33,519 bases of DNA from Draconibacterium orientale. Its GTDB lineage: Bacteria; Bacteroidota; Bacteroidia; Bacteroidales; JAADGE01. Positions 7,543 through 26,289 of the stretch are shown here, piece by piece. The notes below the pieces were generated by a model that searched no databases, was not told the origin of the DNA, and was given only the letters and a program-made list of their open reading frames with translations. The DNA is taken from positions 1-33,519 of the forward strand of contig DYMH01000026.1 of NCBI GenBank assembly GCA_020721645.1, given 5' to 3'. The position numbers and the translations under genes are program-made. Each line of letters opens with the position of its first letter. Position 1 is the stretch's first letter.

Positions 7543-9588
7543 ATGAAGAGCAGAATTGTTTTTACCGTTTTTGTTGCGATTTATTTGTTAAATTCCGGCA
7601 CATTATTTTCCCAAATTGTGAAAATTCTGCCGGCACCGATTACAATTCCGGGCTATTCGGTAAAATCTCCTTATGTGAGTTACGATGGACAAAATATGGT
7701 TTTCATACTCGAAAACAAAGATTCATCAATTGTGGTTGAATCGCAACGCACCATTGACGGTGTTTGGGGAAAACCGAAATCGATAACAGCAATTAATAAA
7801 TTCGATACAAAACCTTTTTTTATCGAAGCACCCTCCTACAATCAAGATGTTACGGAGTTGTATTTCAGTTTGTTGTACGATATCAAAGATTCCACGGCAG
7901 ATATTTACAGCTCGAAAAAAATTGCCGGCAAATGGCAAAAACCCGTAAAATTGCCAAAACCAATCAATACAGCCCAATTCGAAAGCGACCCATGTCTTTC
8001 GCCGGACGGGAAAACCCTGTTTTTTGTTCGTAATTTTGATAATCCGGAAATAAAAGATTTTCAATGCACTGTAATTTATTCTTCAAAATTTTCGGATTCG
8101 GTTTGGAGCGAACCAAAACTACTGCCATCGCCTGTAAACAGTGGTTGCGATGGTGCTCCTCGCATGGCAGCCGATGGTAAAACTTTATACATGTCGTCGA
8201 TTCGAGAAGAAGGAAAGGGAGGGAGCGACCTGTATTTTGCAAAAAATATCACTGAAAACGTGTGGATAAGCCCCATTGCAATCGATACCCTGAATACCGA
8301 AAAAAATGAAATGTATCCTTCGGTGAGCTCTGTCGAAAATACGATTTGTTTAGAAACATCGGAAAAAAACCGCCGAAAAAGCTTAAAATTAGCTGCTTAT
8401 GCAAATTTGCCCAACAAATTCAGTCCCGAAAAAGTTGTGATTCTCAACGGCATTATTTCCGATAAAAATTCGAGCAAGCCTTTGCCTGCCCGTGTAGATT
8501 TGATTGACCCAAATTCATCAACACTCATATATTCGGCTTTTTCAGATGCTTTCGACGGAAAATATTCCATCGTCTTGCAACAAGAAAAAAATTACAGAAT
8601 AGACATCTCGTCTGCCGGATATTCACATGTTATATTTGATTACAGCACGGAAAAAATCAAAGAAAGTTTCAGCGAAAAACGTGATTTTACTTTATTCAAC
8701 GAAGTTGTTCTGTTACTATCTGTTTTCGACAGTGAAATTTTTGAACCTTTGAAATCCGAAGTCCGAATCTATGACAACGATTTGGGAAACGAAATAACTC
8801 TCAATCTGAACGAAACAGGTAAAGGAAAATATAATTTGATATTGCCCGCAGGCAAAAAATATCGGATAACAGCATCGAAAAAACGTTTCGAGCCCAACGG
8901 TTTCTTACTCGATTTAAGCGGTGTGGTTCAGTTCAGCGAATTTGAACGCGATATTGAACTCACTCAGGCAAAAGTAGATTTTAAAATTGGCATTTTGGAT
9001 TCCGAAACAGGCGAAGGTGTTGATGTAGAGCTCGAAATTACAAACCTTACAACCAATGAACGTATCACAAAAAAAGTAAAAACCGATGCCGATGGAAAGG
9101 TTACCGTCAGTTTGAGAGACGGAGACCGTTATGACATCAGTGTAAGCCCGAAAGGATATGCTTTTTTCAACACCGTTATCGAGCCGGAATCGGAGGGGGG
9201 CGAAAATTTTGTTGACCTAAAATTGCAACCACTCAAACAGGAAACGAAAGTGGAACTCAGCGATATTACTTTTGAATTTAACTCTGCCGACCTGAACAGC
9301 AGCTCGTTTCCCGAACTCGAACGCTTGACTAAACTGATGCAAATCAATCCGGAAATGAAAATTGAAATTTCGGCACATACCGATGATGTCGGGGCACAAA
9401 ATTACAATTTAAAACTTTCAACAAAGCGTGCTCAGTCTGTATTGAATTATCTGATAGACAAAGGAATGAACGCAAAAAATATCAGTTCAAAAGGCTATGG
9501 GAAGTCTCAGCCAAAATATTTGCCTGAAAACACCGAAGAAAACCGTTCAAGAAATAGGCGAGTCGAAATGAAAATTCTTTCATTGTAA
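7543..9588 (+). CDS. PD40 propeller/OmpA-family outer-membrane protein
   Basis: The 681-residue product has a signal peptide (about 1-24). It continues with a region of WD40-like PD40 repeats (about 40-280, e.g. 'DGKTLFFVRNFD' and 'DGKTLYMSS'). Then come two or three carboxypeptidase-regulatory-like beta-sandwich segments (about 295-565) and a C-terminal OmpA peptidoglycan-binding domain (about 570-680). The OmpA domain has 'ISAHTDDVG', 'LSTKRAQSV' and 'NRSRNRRVEM'. This architecture is common in Bacteroidota; PorE of the type IX secretion system has a related layout, but this protein is not clearly PorE. It probably anchors a periplasmic complex to peptidoglycan with the VWA and downstream proteins. 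Confidence 0.9.
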   Translation: MKSRIVFTVFVAIYLLNSGTLFSQIVKILPAPITIPGYSVKSPYVSYDGQNMVFILENKDSSIVVESQRTIDGVWGKPKSITAINKFDTKPFFIEAPSYNQDVTELYFSLLYDIKDSTADIYSSKKIAGKWQKPVKLPKPINTAQFESDPCLSPDGKTLFFVRNFDNPEIKDFQCTVIYSSKFSDSVWSEPKLLPSPVNSGCDGAPRMAADGKTLYMSSIREEGKGGSDLYFAKNITENVWISPIAIDTLNTEKNEMYPSVSSVENTICLETSEKNRRKSLKLAAYANLPNKFSPEKVVILNGIISDKNSSKPLPARVDLIDPNSSTLIYSAFSDAFDGKYSIVLQQEKNYRIDISSAGYSHVIFDYSTEKIKESFSEKRDFTLFNEVVLLLSVFDSEIFEPLKSEVRIYDNDLGNEITLNLNETGKGKYNLILPAGKKYRITASKKRFEPNGFLLDLSGVVQFSEFERDIELTQAKVDFKIGILDSETGEGVDVELEITNLTTNERITKKVKTDADGKVTVSLRDGDRYDISVSPKGYAFFNTVIEPESEGGENFVDLKLQPLKQETKVELSDITFEFNSADLNSSSFPELERLTKLMQINPEMKIEISAHTDDVGAQNYNLKLSTKRAQSVLNYLIDKGMNAKNISSKGYGKSQPKYLPENTEENRSRNRRVEMKILSL

Positions 9589-21826: not shown

Positions 21827-23182
21827 TTATTTGGACCACGAAGCCGGAAGTTTACCGTCCACGGTGATTGATGATGATGCTCCAATAGCCCAATCTTCCA
21901 AATCTCCTTGATACAGATACAATTCTTTATTCACCATCACGCCGTTTTCGTTGCGAATATGACAACTCGAACTGCACGATGTTTGACCTTCTTTTACTGT
22001 GGTTCGGGTAGTCCACTTCAATATATTGTGAGGTGAAGTGTAATTGTAGGTCGGAAACTCATCAAAATTTGATAATGCCGGGACACCGTAAACCGACCAG
22101 CTGTCGGGTGCCGATAATGTTCGGCGAACCAATGTGAAATCGAAACCCGTTTTGATTGTCGGAATTGGATTCGAAGCAATCTTGAAACCTAAATACGCCG
22201 GAATCCGTGCACCTTCGGCATGAATATGGCAACTGCCGCAATTATTATAGTCTTGAGAATGGCAAACTTGACAGTTAAAATCATCGTAATGTTCAGTGTG
22301 ATAAGTATTTGCAGTAGAAATACCGGTGTGGCAATCGTCGCATTTTGGTAATTTTGAATAGGCATATCTTTGATCCACAGGCTGCCCATCGCCGTGCAAT
22401 TCCGCACCGGAGTGGCATTTCAAGCAAGTGAAACCGCTTTGTGTCAAATGAACATCCGGCTGAGTTCCTGCCGCAACGCCCAAATATGCGTGTCCGCCGC
22501 GAGAAGAGTGGCATACCACACAACCGGTAACCATATCCGGAGTTTTCGTAAAACTGTGTCCTTTCGATAAACCTCCGCCGCCCGAAAGTGGACGGACAAC
22601 ATGGCAATTTCCGCATGTTCCGTGACAAGTGGCACAGTTTGCATCGTAGCCTTCGATTTGATGCGAAGGCAATTGGTCGAAATCGGAGGCTCCGCTCAAT
22701 CCGCTTCGTATGCAAACTTTTCGCTTTTGTCCCGTTCCGTGATGTATGCTTGTGGTAAAATTATTTGCAATTTCGGCATGACACGTCCCGCAGTTTGCTT
22801 GATAATTTGCTGATGGATGTCTTTCAAAATCGCCCGAATGGGCTACTTTTTTGTCTGCAGTATTATCAGTTCCTTTATGACAACCCACACAGCCAATTTG
22901 ATAATGTCCCGATTGTTTATACGACTCAAAACCTTCGCCGCCCATAAAAACGCGGTCGTAAGGCTCGTAATGAGGAGCTTCGCCGCCGCAGCCTCCGCCC
23001 GTTACAACCGTATCGGGTGAATAGACTTTTTGTAGTTGTGCATAATCGGTATGACACCCTTCGCACGATGCAAAACTCTCAACAACAGGGGCTGCCTCTT
23101 TTTCAATACAACCTGCGAGAAACAGCAATATCAATAATGCTGTTAAAAATAATGGTGTTATACGTGAATATTTGTTTCCCAT
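21827..23182 (-). CDS. Multihaem c-type cytochrome lipoprotein (ten CXXCH plus one CX3CH)
   Basis: The 451-residue product has a lipoprotein signal with likely lipidated Cys25 (FLAG-C). Ten canonical haem-attachment motifs start at residues 40, 98, 131, 183, 190, 221, 253, 281, 304 and 315. One CSSSCH (403-408) is spaced CX3CH. Many additional histidines could serve as distal ligands. The protein does not resemble nitrite (NrfA) or hydroxylamine enzymes closely enough to name one. It should sit in the periplasm or on the cell surface and move electrons. The rhodanese lipoprotein downstream and the divergent Crp/Fnr gene suggest regulated anaerobic respiration. Confidence 0.92.
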   Translation of the reverse strand: MGNKYSRITPLFLTALLILLFLAGCIEKEAAPVVESFASCEGCHTDYAQLQKVYSPDTVVTGGGCGGEAPHYEPYDRVFMGGEGFESYKQSGHYQIGCVGCHKGTDNTADKKVAHSGDFERHPSANYQANCGTCHAEIANNFTTSIHHGTGQKRKVCIRSGLSGASDFDQLPSHQIEGYDANCATCHGTCGNCHVVRPLSGGGGLSKGHSFTKTPDMVTGCVVCHSSRGGHAYLGVAAGTQPDVHLTQSGFTCLKCHSGAELHGDGQPVDQRYAYSKLPKCDDCHTGISTANTYHTEHYDDFNCQVCHSQDYNNCGSCHIHAEGARIPAYLGFKIASNPIPTIKTGFDFTLVRRTLSAPDSWSVYGVPALSNFDEFPTYNYTSPHNILKWTTRTTVKEGQTSCSSSCHIRNENGVMVNKELYLYQGDLEDWAIGASSSITVDGKLPASWSK

Positions 23183-23419: not shown

Positions 23420-24115
23420 ATGCGTAATACGAATTTATATACCGGCTGTACAATTGGGCAACACGTATCGAATTGTTTCGATAAATTAACGTCCGAAGAA
23501 ATAAAATTGATAGATGCAAATTCTGTAAATATCAAATACAAAAAACACGAAATCATCTGCAAGCAAGGTGGCTTGGTTACTCAGTTGATGTTCATGAAAA
23601 AAGGATTGGCAAAGGTATATCTCGATGATGGAGTTAATACCTTAGTTTTGAAAATTATACCAACAGGAAACCTACTGGGATTGGCATCTATTTCCGAAGA
23701 AAATAATGTATTTCAGTATTCGGCAATGGCTTATATCGATTCAGAAATCAAACAAATAGACATTCAGATTATACGGCAAATAATCCGTCAAAATTCCGAA
23801 TTTGCAAAAGATGTTATTGATATATTGAGCTCAAACAGCGTTCAAATCTACAACCGTTTTTTTTGTTTTACTCACAAACAATGTTTCGGAAAATTAGCCG
23901 ATATCATTCTTTGTCTGAGCGACCGAATTTTCAGTACAACCCAATTTGAACTGCCGCTTTCGAGGCGGGAAATGGGCGAACTGTCCGGCATGAGTACCGA
24001 AACCTTGATTCGACTGCTTAAAAAATTTGTTGAAGATGGATTAATTTCTATTGAAGGAAAAACAATCACCGTACTCGATTATGAGAGGCTTAAAAATATC
24101 AGCGAAAAAGGGTAG
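23420..24115 (+). CDS. Crp/Fnr-family transcription regulator
   Basis: The 231-residue product has an N-terminal cyclic-nucleotide-binding-type beta barrel (about 20-125, including 'HEIICKQGGLVTQLMFMKKGLAKVYL'). A long dimerisation helix follows (about 128-150), then a winged helix-turn-helix (about 175-225) with 'LSRREMGELSGMSTETLIRLLKKF'. The cysteines (e.g. 10, 19 and 48) are not spaced like the FNR iron-sulfur cluster, and the cAMP-binding signature of CRP is not evident, so the effector is unknown. It is divergent from the multihaem cytochrome gene, and an FNR-like box lies between them; control of that operon and of itself is likely. Confidence 0.9.
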   Translation: MRNTNLYTGCTIGQHVSNCFDKLTSEEIKLIDANSVNIKYKKHEIICKQGGLVTQLMFMKKGLAKVYLDDGVNTLVLKIIPTGNLLGLASISEENNVFQYSAMAYIDSEIKQIDIQIIRQIIRQNSEFAKDVIDILSSNSVQIYNRFFCFTHKQCFGKLADIILCLSDRIFSTTQFELPLSRREMGELSGMSTETLIRLLKKFVEDGLISIEGKTITVLDYERLKNISEKG

Positions 24116-24248
24116 TAAACTAAAAAACTAAAAGTGAAAAACTAAAAGTGAAAAACTAAAAGTGAAAAACTAAAAACTAAAAGTGAAAAACTAAAAACCA
24201 AAAATCAACAATTAATTCCTAATTCCTAATTTCTAATTCCTAATTGCT
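24116..24248. repeat. Nineteen contiguous degenerate heptamers filling a convergent spacer
   Basis: The sequence divides exactly into 19 units of 7 bp. AAAAACT and AAAAGTG alternate on the left, then AAAAACC, AAAAATC and AACAATT form a transition, and AATTCCT-type units follow on the right. The array starts at the first base after the Crp/Fnr stop codon and ends one base before the era stop codon, so the spacer contains nothing else. No spacers or hairpins are present. Confidence 0.9.
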
Positions 24249-24249
24249 T

Positions 24250-25137
24250 TTATTGATTGTATCCGAATTTATCTAAAAAGTTTTTCTTATCGCGCCAGTC
24301 TTTTTCCACTTTAACAAAAACTTCGAGAAAGACTTTTTTGTCGAAAAATGCTTCCATATCAATACGTGCTTGGGTTGCTGTTTTTTTCAGAGCCTCGCCT
24401 TTATGTCCGATAATAATGCCTTTTTGGGTGTAGCGGCTGACGTAAATCAAGCTTTTTATTCGTATGATGTCTTCTTCTTCTTTAAATTCTTCAACTTCAA
24501 CTTCCACCGAATACGGAATTTCTTTTTTGTAGTTCATCAGAATTTTTTCGCGGATGATTTCCTGTACAAAAAATCGCTCCGATTTATCCGTAACTTGGTC
24601 TTTGGGAAAATACGGCGGCGAAACGGGTAGTTTTGCAGTAATGCTTTTTAGCAAATTGTCGAGATTAAATTTTTCGAGTGCCGATACCGGGAATATTTCG
24701 GCTTGGGGAAGTAATTCCTGCCAACCTACGGCGAGTTCTCCCAATTTTTCTTGTGTCGTTAAATCTATTTTATTGATAATTAAAAAAACAGGAACTTCGG
24801 TATTTTGAACTTTTTGAAGAAATTCTTCATTTTTCTCTTTTGTCTCGTATATATCTGTTACATAGATTATTAAATCAGCATCTTCGAGTGCCGATTTTGT
24901 GAAATTGAGCATCGATTCCTGCAATTTGTATAGCGGTTTCAAAATGCCCGGCGTGTCGGAAAATACAATTTGAAAATCTTCGCCGTTGATAATTCCCATG
25001 ATTCGATGCCGGGTGGTTTGTGCTTTTGAACTGACAATCGACAGTTTTTCGCCCATCAAAGCATTCATCAATGTCGATTTGCCCACATTGGGATTTCCAA
25101 GGATATTGACGAACCCGGATTTATGATTTTCAGACAT
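24250..25137 (-). CDS. era: GTPase Era
   Basis: The 295-residue product matches Era in size and layout. Its GTP-binding motifs are 'GNPNVGKS' (14-21), 'DTPG' (61-64), 'NKID' (122-125) and 'VSALE' (151-155). The C-terminal KH domain (about 205-290) has the RNA-binding loop 'GHKGEALK' (244-251). Era binds the 3' end of 16S rRNA and supports 30S ribosome maturation at the inner face of the membrane. The gene stands alone on the minus strand; its 3' end abuts the heptamer array. Confidence 0.97.
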   Translation of the reverse strand: MSENHKSGFVNILGNPNVGKSTLMNALMGEKLSIVSSKAQTTRHRIMGIINGEDFQIVFSDTPGILKPLYKLQESMLNFTKSALEDADLIIYVTDIYETKEKNEEFLQKVQNTEVPVFLIINKIDLTTQEKLGELAVGWQELLPQAEIFPVSALEKFNLDNLLKSITAKLPVSPPYFPKDQVTDKSERFFVQEIIREKILMNYKKEIPYSVEVEVEEFKEEEDIIRIKSLIYVSRYTQKGIIIGHKGEALKKTATQARIDMEAFFDKKVFLEVFVKVEKDWRDKKNFLDKFGYNQ

Positions 25138-26152: not shown

Positions 26153-26234
26153 AGTAGATATATTTCTTATCTAATTGAAGCACTATCATAAGTTGCGTTT
26201 TAAAAAATTGTTTAACTATTTGATATTAAATGCA

Positions 26235-26266
26235 ATCAGCATATCAGCACATCAAAAAATCAACCA
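26235..26266 (+). repeat. Octamer array ATCANNNN, four units
   Basis: ATCAGCAT, ATCAGCAC, ATCAAAAA and ATCAACCA follow without gaps, 24 bp before the 3' end of the J-domain gene. The array matches the one at 17272-17303 in unit length and ATCA anchor, in the opposite orientation. Confidence 0.6.
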
Positions 26267-26289
26267 ATAAAAGTATAAGTGCATTTTCA

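Follow-up and report, generated by a model that had tools for sequence, protein, structure and literature searches.

The convergent spacer between a Crp/Fnr-family gene and era in Draconibacterium orientale is built of two arrays of AT-rich heptamers, and its 7-bp periodicity is real and far above chance. The spacer belongs to the known class of intergenic heptamer simple-sequence repeats, having both the 7-bp tandem units and the 7-bp excess of that class, and is one of many such spacers in its genome. The arrays probably grew by slipped-strand misalignment in untranslated DNA, where such growth is tolerated. A rule of strand polarity at gene edges is proposed here more tentatively. All positions refer to the window, which is the whole stretch of 33,519 nucleotides that was analysed.

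Two heptamer blocks in one spacer

The spacer spans 24116-24249 (134 bp) and, with its flanking genes, has the following features:

23420-24115, forward strand: gene of a Crp/Fnr-family regulator, left flank (Pfam HTH_Crp_2 at 1e-15, cNMP_binding at 1e-9)
24113-24115, forward strand: stop codon TAG of the Crp/Fnr-family gene, left edge of the spacer
24116-24122, no strand: heptamer TAAACTA right after the Crp/Fnr stop, of array-like composition and one base off the 7-bp register
24123-24206, forward strand: array block A, AAAAACT/AAAAGTG units, mostly in 14-bp alternation (Tandem Repeats Finder at 24123-24204, lag-7 analysis)
24207-24213, no strand: transition unit AACAATT, which links blocks A and B in the same 7-bp register (lag-7 analysis)
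24214-24248, reverse strand: array block B, three AATTCCT units with AATTTCT and AATTGCT (Tandem Repeats Finder at 24213-24245, lag-7 analysis)
24250-24252, reverse strand: stop codon of era, right edge of the spacer
24250-25137, reverse strand: gene of the era GTPase, right flank (Pfam MMR_HSR1 at 7e-26, KH_2 at 9e-19)

Block A runs from the Crp/Fnr stop into the spacer and closes with the transition units AAAAACC and AAAAATC. Block B, read on the era strand, is made of AATTAGG-type units and runs inward from the era stop. The identity of the whole spacer at lag 7 is 0.685 vs 0.384 +/- 0.041 (maximum 0.535) in 5000 dinucleotide shuffles, it is likewise high at lags 14, 21 and 28, and the flanking genes have a lag-7 identity of 0.26. 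Tandem Repeats Finder located both arrays independently.

The first-pass annotation had described nearly the whole spacer as a single drifting array of 19 heptamers in a 7-bp frame. The periodicity is confirmed by the lag-7 identity, which is the real evidence for it, the division of 133 bp into 19 being arithmetic only. The first heptamer falls out of register, the in-phase units number 18 (24123-24248), and these form two blocks in one register, joined by AAAAACC, AAAAATC and AACAATT. An ordered drift of the units is found for units two apart (mean Hamming distance 1.56 vs 2.60 in permuted order, p = 0.003), and the trend between neighbouring units is weak and marginal (2.06 vs 2.60, p = 0.06).

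Two other features of the window can be mentioned. The contig starts inside another heptamer array (1-68), which consists of about 10 copies of TACTAAC and extends up to the stop of the first gene; this start is among the 15 sampled contig ends in 7- or 8-bp arrays that are counted below. Positions 21827-23182 encode a 451-aa multihaem cytochrome-like protein, which has many CxxCH motifs and no Pfam match at 1e-5.

Arrays across the genome and how they may have grown

The source assembly is a 3.83-Mb draft in 285 contigs that is 97% complete, and its relatives are Bacteroidales. The genome sample comprises 121 contigs or contig parts with 1.27 Mb, one third of the genome, window included. Genes in the sample were called by a home-made hexamer model, which recovers the genes of the window and took over from a first coding model that was dropped because it missed genes. 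Arrays were searched as lag-identity segments in 132 kb of spacers, with order-2 Markov shuffles as control.

The sampled spacers contain 53 segments at lag 7 and 48 at lag 8, compared with 5.8 and 4.8 in the shuffles. Another 41 are found at lag 14, the double of 7, and lags 3-6 and 9-13 give just 1-4 segments each, so that the excess over other unit lengths is restricted to lags 7 and 8 and the multiple 14. The density of lag-7 segments is about 400 per Mb in spacers vs about 3 per Mb in coding sequence. Among about 600 spacers of at least 60 bp, 82 contain arrays, which take up 80% or more of the spacer in 11 cases; the Crp/Fnr-era spacer is one of these 11 and is therefore not unique. Arrays are present in 62/430 tandem, 11/60 convergent and 8/112 divergent spacers, the divergent type being poorer in arrays than the rest (8/112 vs 73/490, p = 0.03). 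They often adjoin or overlap gene ends, at a median distance of 6.5 bp from stops vs 47.5 bp from starts.

These counts bear on three earlier expectations. Heptamer arrays were expected to be commoner than in shuffled spacers, and they are (53 segments vs 5.8). Their growth was thought to be tolerated only between stop codons; their concentration in spacers fits tolerance outside reading frames, but arrays also lie in tandem and divergent spacers. An association with the 3' ends of genes is seen in that stops are adjoined more tightly than starts, although starts are adjoined too.

The same few units, the heptamers AAAAACT/AAAAGTG, AATTAGG, AATTGAY and AGTAGTT and the octamers TGATGTGA and AAATGTGG, recur at many unlinked spacers and are, together with the heptamer AATTGTT, the main 7-bp and 8-bp units of the sample. 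AATTAGG is found again in scattered families. The longest array of the sample, at positions 18-894 of L175 (a contig or contig part), measures nearly 880 bp and is made of ATTATGA heptamers, some of them varied to ATTATGG. Contig ends fall inside 7- or 8-bp arrays in 15 of 210 cases, though no more than 0.75% of the sequence consists of arrays. Such an enrichment is expected because the arrays are long, shared repeats, and it means that copy numbers elsewhere may be under-assembled. In L257, another contig or contig part, an N run at about 8151-8252 lies within an 8-bp TGATGTGC/TGATTTGT array and represents an assembly gap in a repeat.

A dispersed 105-bp repeat is found in the window at about 26175-26278 (core 26235-26264) and at about 35 places in L171-L290. 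It is MITE-like, with TATACT...AGTATA ends; many copies are 99% identical, and a second genus of the family (G006) has the repeat at 97-99% identity. The right arm of the repeat is periodic at 8 bp (ATCAGCAT ATCAGCAC ATCAAAAA ATCAACCA) and resembles the TGATGTGA arrays of the sampled genome. In two loci of a different Bacteroidales family (L069 and L092), 8-bp arrays lie on either side of era and read CAATGATA outward from both ends of the gene, in mirror orientation, and the array downstream of era lies in an element with TATACT...AGTATA ends.

Slipped-strand misalignment, the preferred reading, would have lengthened two simple-sequence arrays in whole 7-bp units during DNA synthesis. Units would have mutated while the arrays grew, which would give similar neighbours and composite units, and the expansion would be tolerated in untranslated DNA and kept between the two stop codons. 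This mechanism fits because of the 7/8-bp specificity, the confinement to untranslated DNA, the similarity of neighbouring units and the composite units. Direct evidence of whole-unit change comes from the dispersed 105-bp element and is thus paralogous, 8-bp and from elsewhere than the Crp/Fnr-era locus: its right arm changes by whole 8-bp units, with total lengths of 97 (2 copies), 105 (22) and 113 (1), in addition to single copies of 104 and 112. The array was not found 3' of era in any other era locus tested, and these loci have no Crp/Fnr homologue. The absence at the other era 3' flanks indicates that the Crp/Fnr-era array is a lineage-local growth. We infer that this array too grew by slippage and is nearly neutral. 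The odd-looking spacer, being one of many, needs no special function.

Two observations count against slippage. Independent slippage from random seeds should yield many units, yet a small set of units turns up again and again at unlinked loci, which hints at copying or sequence preference; and the strong inward polarity of the arrays, described below, is not predicted by slippage. The unknown amplification process put forward in the first-pass annotation is not needed for growth, since slippage has already been proposed in print. Slippage alone does not account for the polarity, however, or for the return of the same few units at unlinked loci.

Strand polarity at gene edges and competing explanations

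Polarity was counted for arrays at most 100 bp from a gene edge, read inward, after removal of the copies of the dispersed 105-bp repeat. GC skew was picked as the measure after a first table, and loci from other genomes served as an independent check. Purine skew was discarded, being weaker than GC skew and confounded by the dispersed repeat. In the 1.27-Mb sample, the G-bearing strand reads inward at 30/34 stop edges (30:4) and at 23/25 start edges (23:2), and at 53:6 when both are pooled (binomial p = 2e-10). Arrays of seven and of eight bp obey this polarity alike. Among 13 spacers with two arrays, 10 have a G-type array at the left and a C-type array at the right and none has the reverse order, and their left and right units often differ, with 7-mers on one side and 8-mers on the other. 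In the Crp/Fnr-era spacer the polarity is the same: units that include AAAAGTG lead from the Crp/Fnr stop into the spacer, and units of AATTAGG type do so from the era stop.

Arrays without any GG keep the inward polarity (25:5), which means that G-quadruplexes cannot be its general cause, and this role was rejected. Array-free start edges have an inward GC skew of 0.22 in the first 15 bp and array-free stop edges one of -0.003. A general scarcity of G just before start codons can thus explain part of the polarity at starts, but it does not explain the polarity at stops, which is array-specific. The tRNA edges, a translation-free check of polarity, offered a single array near a tRNA in the sample.

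Other genomes of the order and the phylum were represented by short loci, selected for containing AATTAGG or AAAAACT on either strand. In these Bacteroidota loci, stop edges are 23:3 inward and start edges 12:6, and in the convergent spacers L316 and L319 the units are AATTAGG next to one stop and AATTCCT next to the opposite stop. Arrays of AAAAACT alone, which have C and not G, are ambiguous; they run inward with AAAAGTG here and are reversed in L292, L294 and L295. As a tentative generalization, 7- and 8-bp spacer arrays of Bacteroidota may run with their G strand inward from any gene end. The rule would apply to units of whatever sequence and length and to genes of either direction, and would require no quadruplex tracts.

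The stop-edge polarity (30:4 here, 23:3 elsewhere) would suit bidirectional transcription-end elements, of hairpin or Rho type, which would insulate converging genes by a G/purine-rich outgoing transcript and a C/U-rich incoming antisense. This explanation is unlikely. The era-strand RNA of the spacer forms a long hairpin rich in G-U pairs, which is modestly significant (z -1.9; 7/200 shuffles as good), but the Crp/Fnr-strand RNA is unstructured (z +0.31). No terminator-like site is predicted in the spacer region, and the spacer lacks an intrinsic bidirectional terminator, that is, a stable hairpin with a U tract on both strands. RNA structure is weaker in array-bearing convergent spacers (mean z -1.57) than in convergent spacers free of arrays (mean z -2.67), and tandem spacers show no such difference. 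Folding of both strands and of the sampled spacers therefore gives no support to a hairpin terminator, nor to the transcription-end insulation suggested earlier if it is taken to act by hairpin.

The preference of Rho for RNA with much C, little G and an even spacing of C speaks for such elements (PMC6407284), but its utilisation site has C>G and a C every 11-13 nt over 78 nt (PMC6407284), and the spacing of the arrays is 7-8 bp. Arrays of the same kind also sit immediately before start codons, a place at which a Rho site would damage the leader of the gene itself. In favour of transcription-end elements, Xanthomonas transcripts start or stop more often within quadruplex-forming repeats (PMC4692102).

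Units could also be laid inward from gene edges by copying or edge-directed addition, which is given a low probability; the process might be gene conversion, an extension that is telomere-like or templated by RNA, or spread by mobile elements whose ends are arrays. In its favour are the head-to-head geometry (10/13 against 0 reverse) and the often unlike units of two-array spacers, the return of identical units both at unlinked loci and in families far apart, and the dispersed 105-bp element with its 8-bp-periodic right arm. On the other hand, no enzyme or template has been identified, the start-edge polarity is partly general, as the skew of array-free start edges indicates, and single arrays too follow the nearest gene edge, which simple break healing does not predict.

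The arrays would act in mRNA if each heptamer were the binding site of one nucleic-acid-binding protein (Csp/S1/Csr-like), by analogy with the role proposed in print by MacGregor for TAACTGA repeats (PMC4679880). A fixed orientation near starts and stops would suit binding sites, but many unrelated units and two unit lengths that follow one rule in one genome are unlike a sequence-specific binder and make this role improbable. An assembly artefact of the metagenome-assembled genome, which a draft of 285 contigs with many contig ends in arrays could suggest, is scarcely credible, the Crp/Fnr-era array being inside a contig with diverged and distinguishable units and the array class being present in many other genomes, some at least 99% complete. 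Copy number could still be under-assembled.

Comparison with known heptamer repeats

The STRR heptanucleotide repeats of heterocystous cyanobacteria are intergenic heptanucleotide arrays too, with other units. A text search of the literature for the unit strings of the present arrays gave no match.

No tandem unit is commoner than the heptamer in the spacers of prokaryotes, and SPADE 2018 sees no clear hint of what these repeats do (PMC6344855). Mrazek 2007, as cited in PMC4679880, reported long simple sequence repeats of 5-11-bp units with a heptamer excess, and a slippage proposal cited in PMC4679880 and PMC4692102 holds that 7 nt matches the polymerase contact. The repeats of these accounts are, in the excerpted passages, likewise intergenic heptamers with slippage as the proposed cause, and the degenerate, composite AT-rich arrays and the polarity found here are not treated in the same passages (PMC4679880, PMC6344855).

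TAACTGA heptamers were described by MacGregor in 2015 in Beggiatoaceae, Cyanobacteria and some Bacteroidetes (Gramella, Elizabethkingia, Flexibacter), so that part of the set belongs to the same phylum (PMC4679880). Both kinds of repeat are intergenic, adjoin starts, are biased in orientation, leave contig ends in repeats and have other heptamers mixed in. TAACTGA repeats form short sets upstream of starts (PMC4679880). The arrays described here have other units (AAAAACT, AAAAGTG and AATTCCT in the Crp/Fnr-era spacer, none of them TAACTGA), adjoin stops no less often than starts and may occupy a whole spacer.

Rehm et al. (2015) interpreted the GGGAATC and GGGGA(C/T)T heptamers of Xanthomonas and Nostoc via G-quadruplexes (PMC4692102). 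Their G-rich strand lies at most 50 bp after a stop (sense) or upstream of starts (antisense), and they form head-to-head pairs, often so in Xanthomonas, overlap stop codons and are under-represented between divergent genes (PMC4692102). Intergenic heptamer arrays, polarity, head-to-head pairs, stop overlap and scarcity between divergent genes are thus common to both (PMC4692102). The arrays described here differ in that their units are AT-rich and contain two G at most, in having several unrelated units and in using both 7 and 8 bp within one genome. Those of the Crp/Fnr-era spacer have GG at most and no G-tracts of 3 or more, which places them outside quadruplex-forming repeats.

What the arrays add to the known class is a polarity independent of quadruplexes, unit sequence and unit length, based on one genome sampled at one third, short loci and a home-made gene model, and it needs a survey of complete genomes. 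AT-rich arrays of unrelated sequence that share the polarity of the Rehm heptamers remove quadruplexes as the general explanation, and the remaining question is what determines the direction of the strands where genes end, especially at stop codons, which are unskewed when free of arrays. If the rule is true, it would point to a general edge-directed growth or selection of arrays that Bacteroidota share with Xanthomonas and Nostoc, and it would open the unexplained excess of heptamers in prokaryotic spacers to testing.
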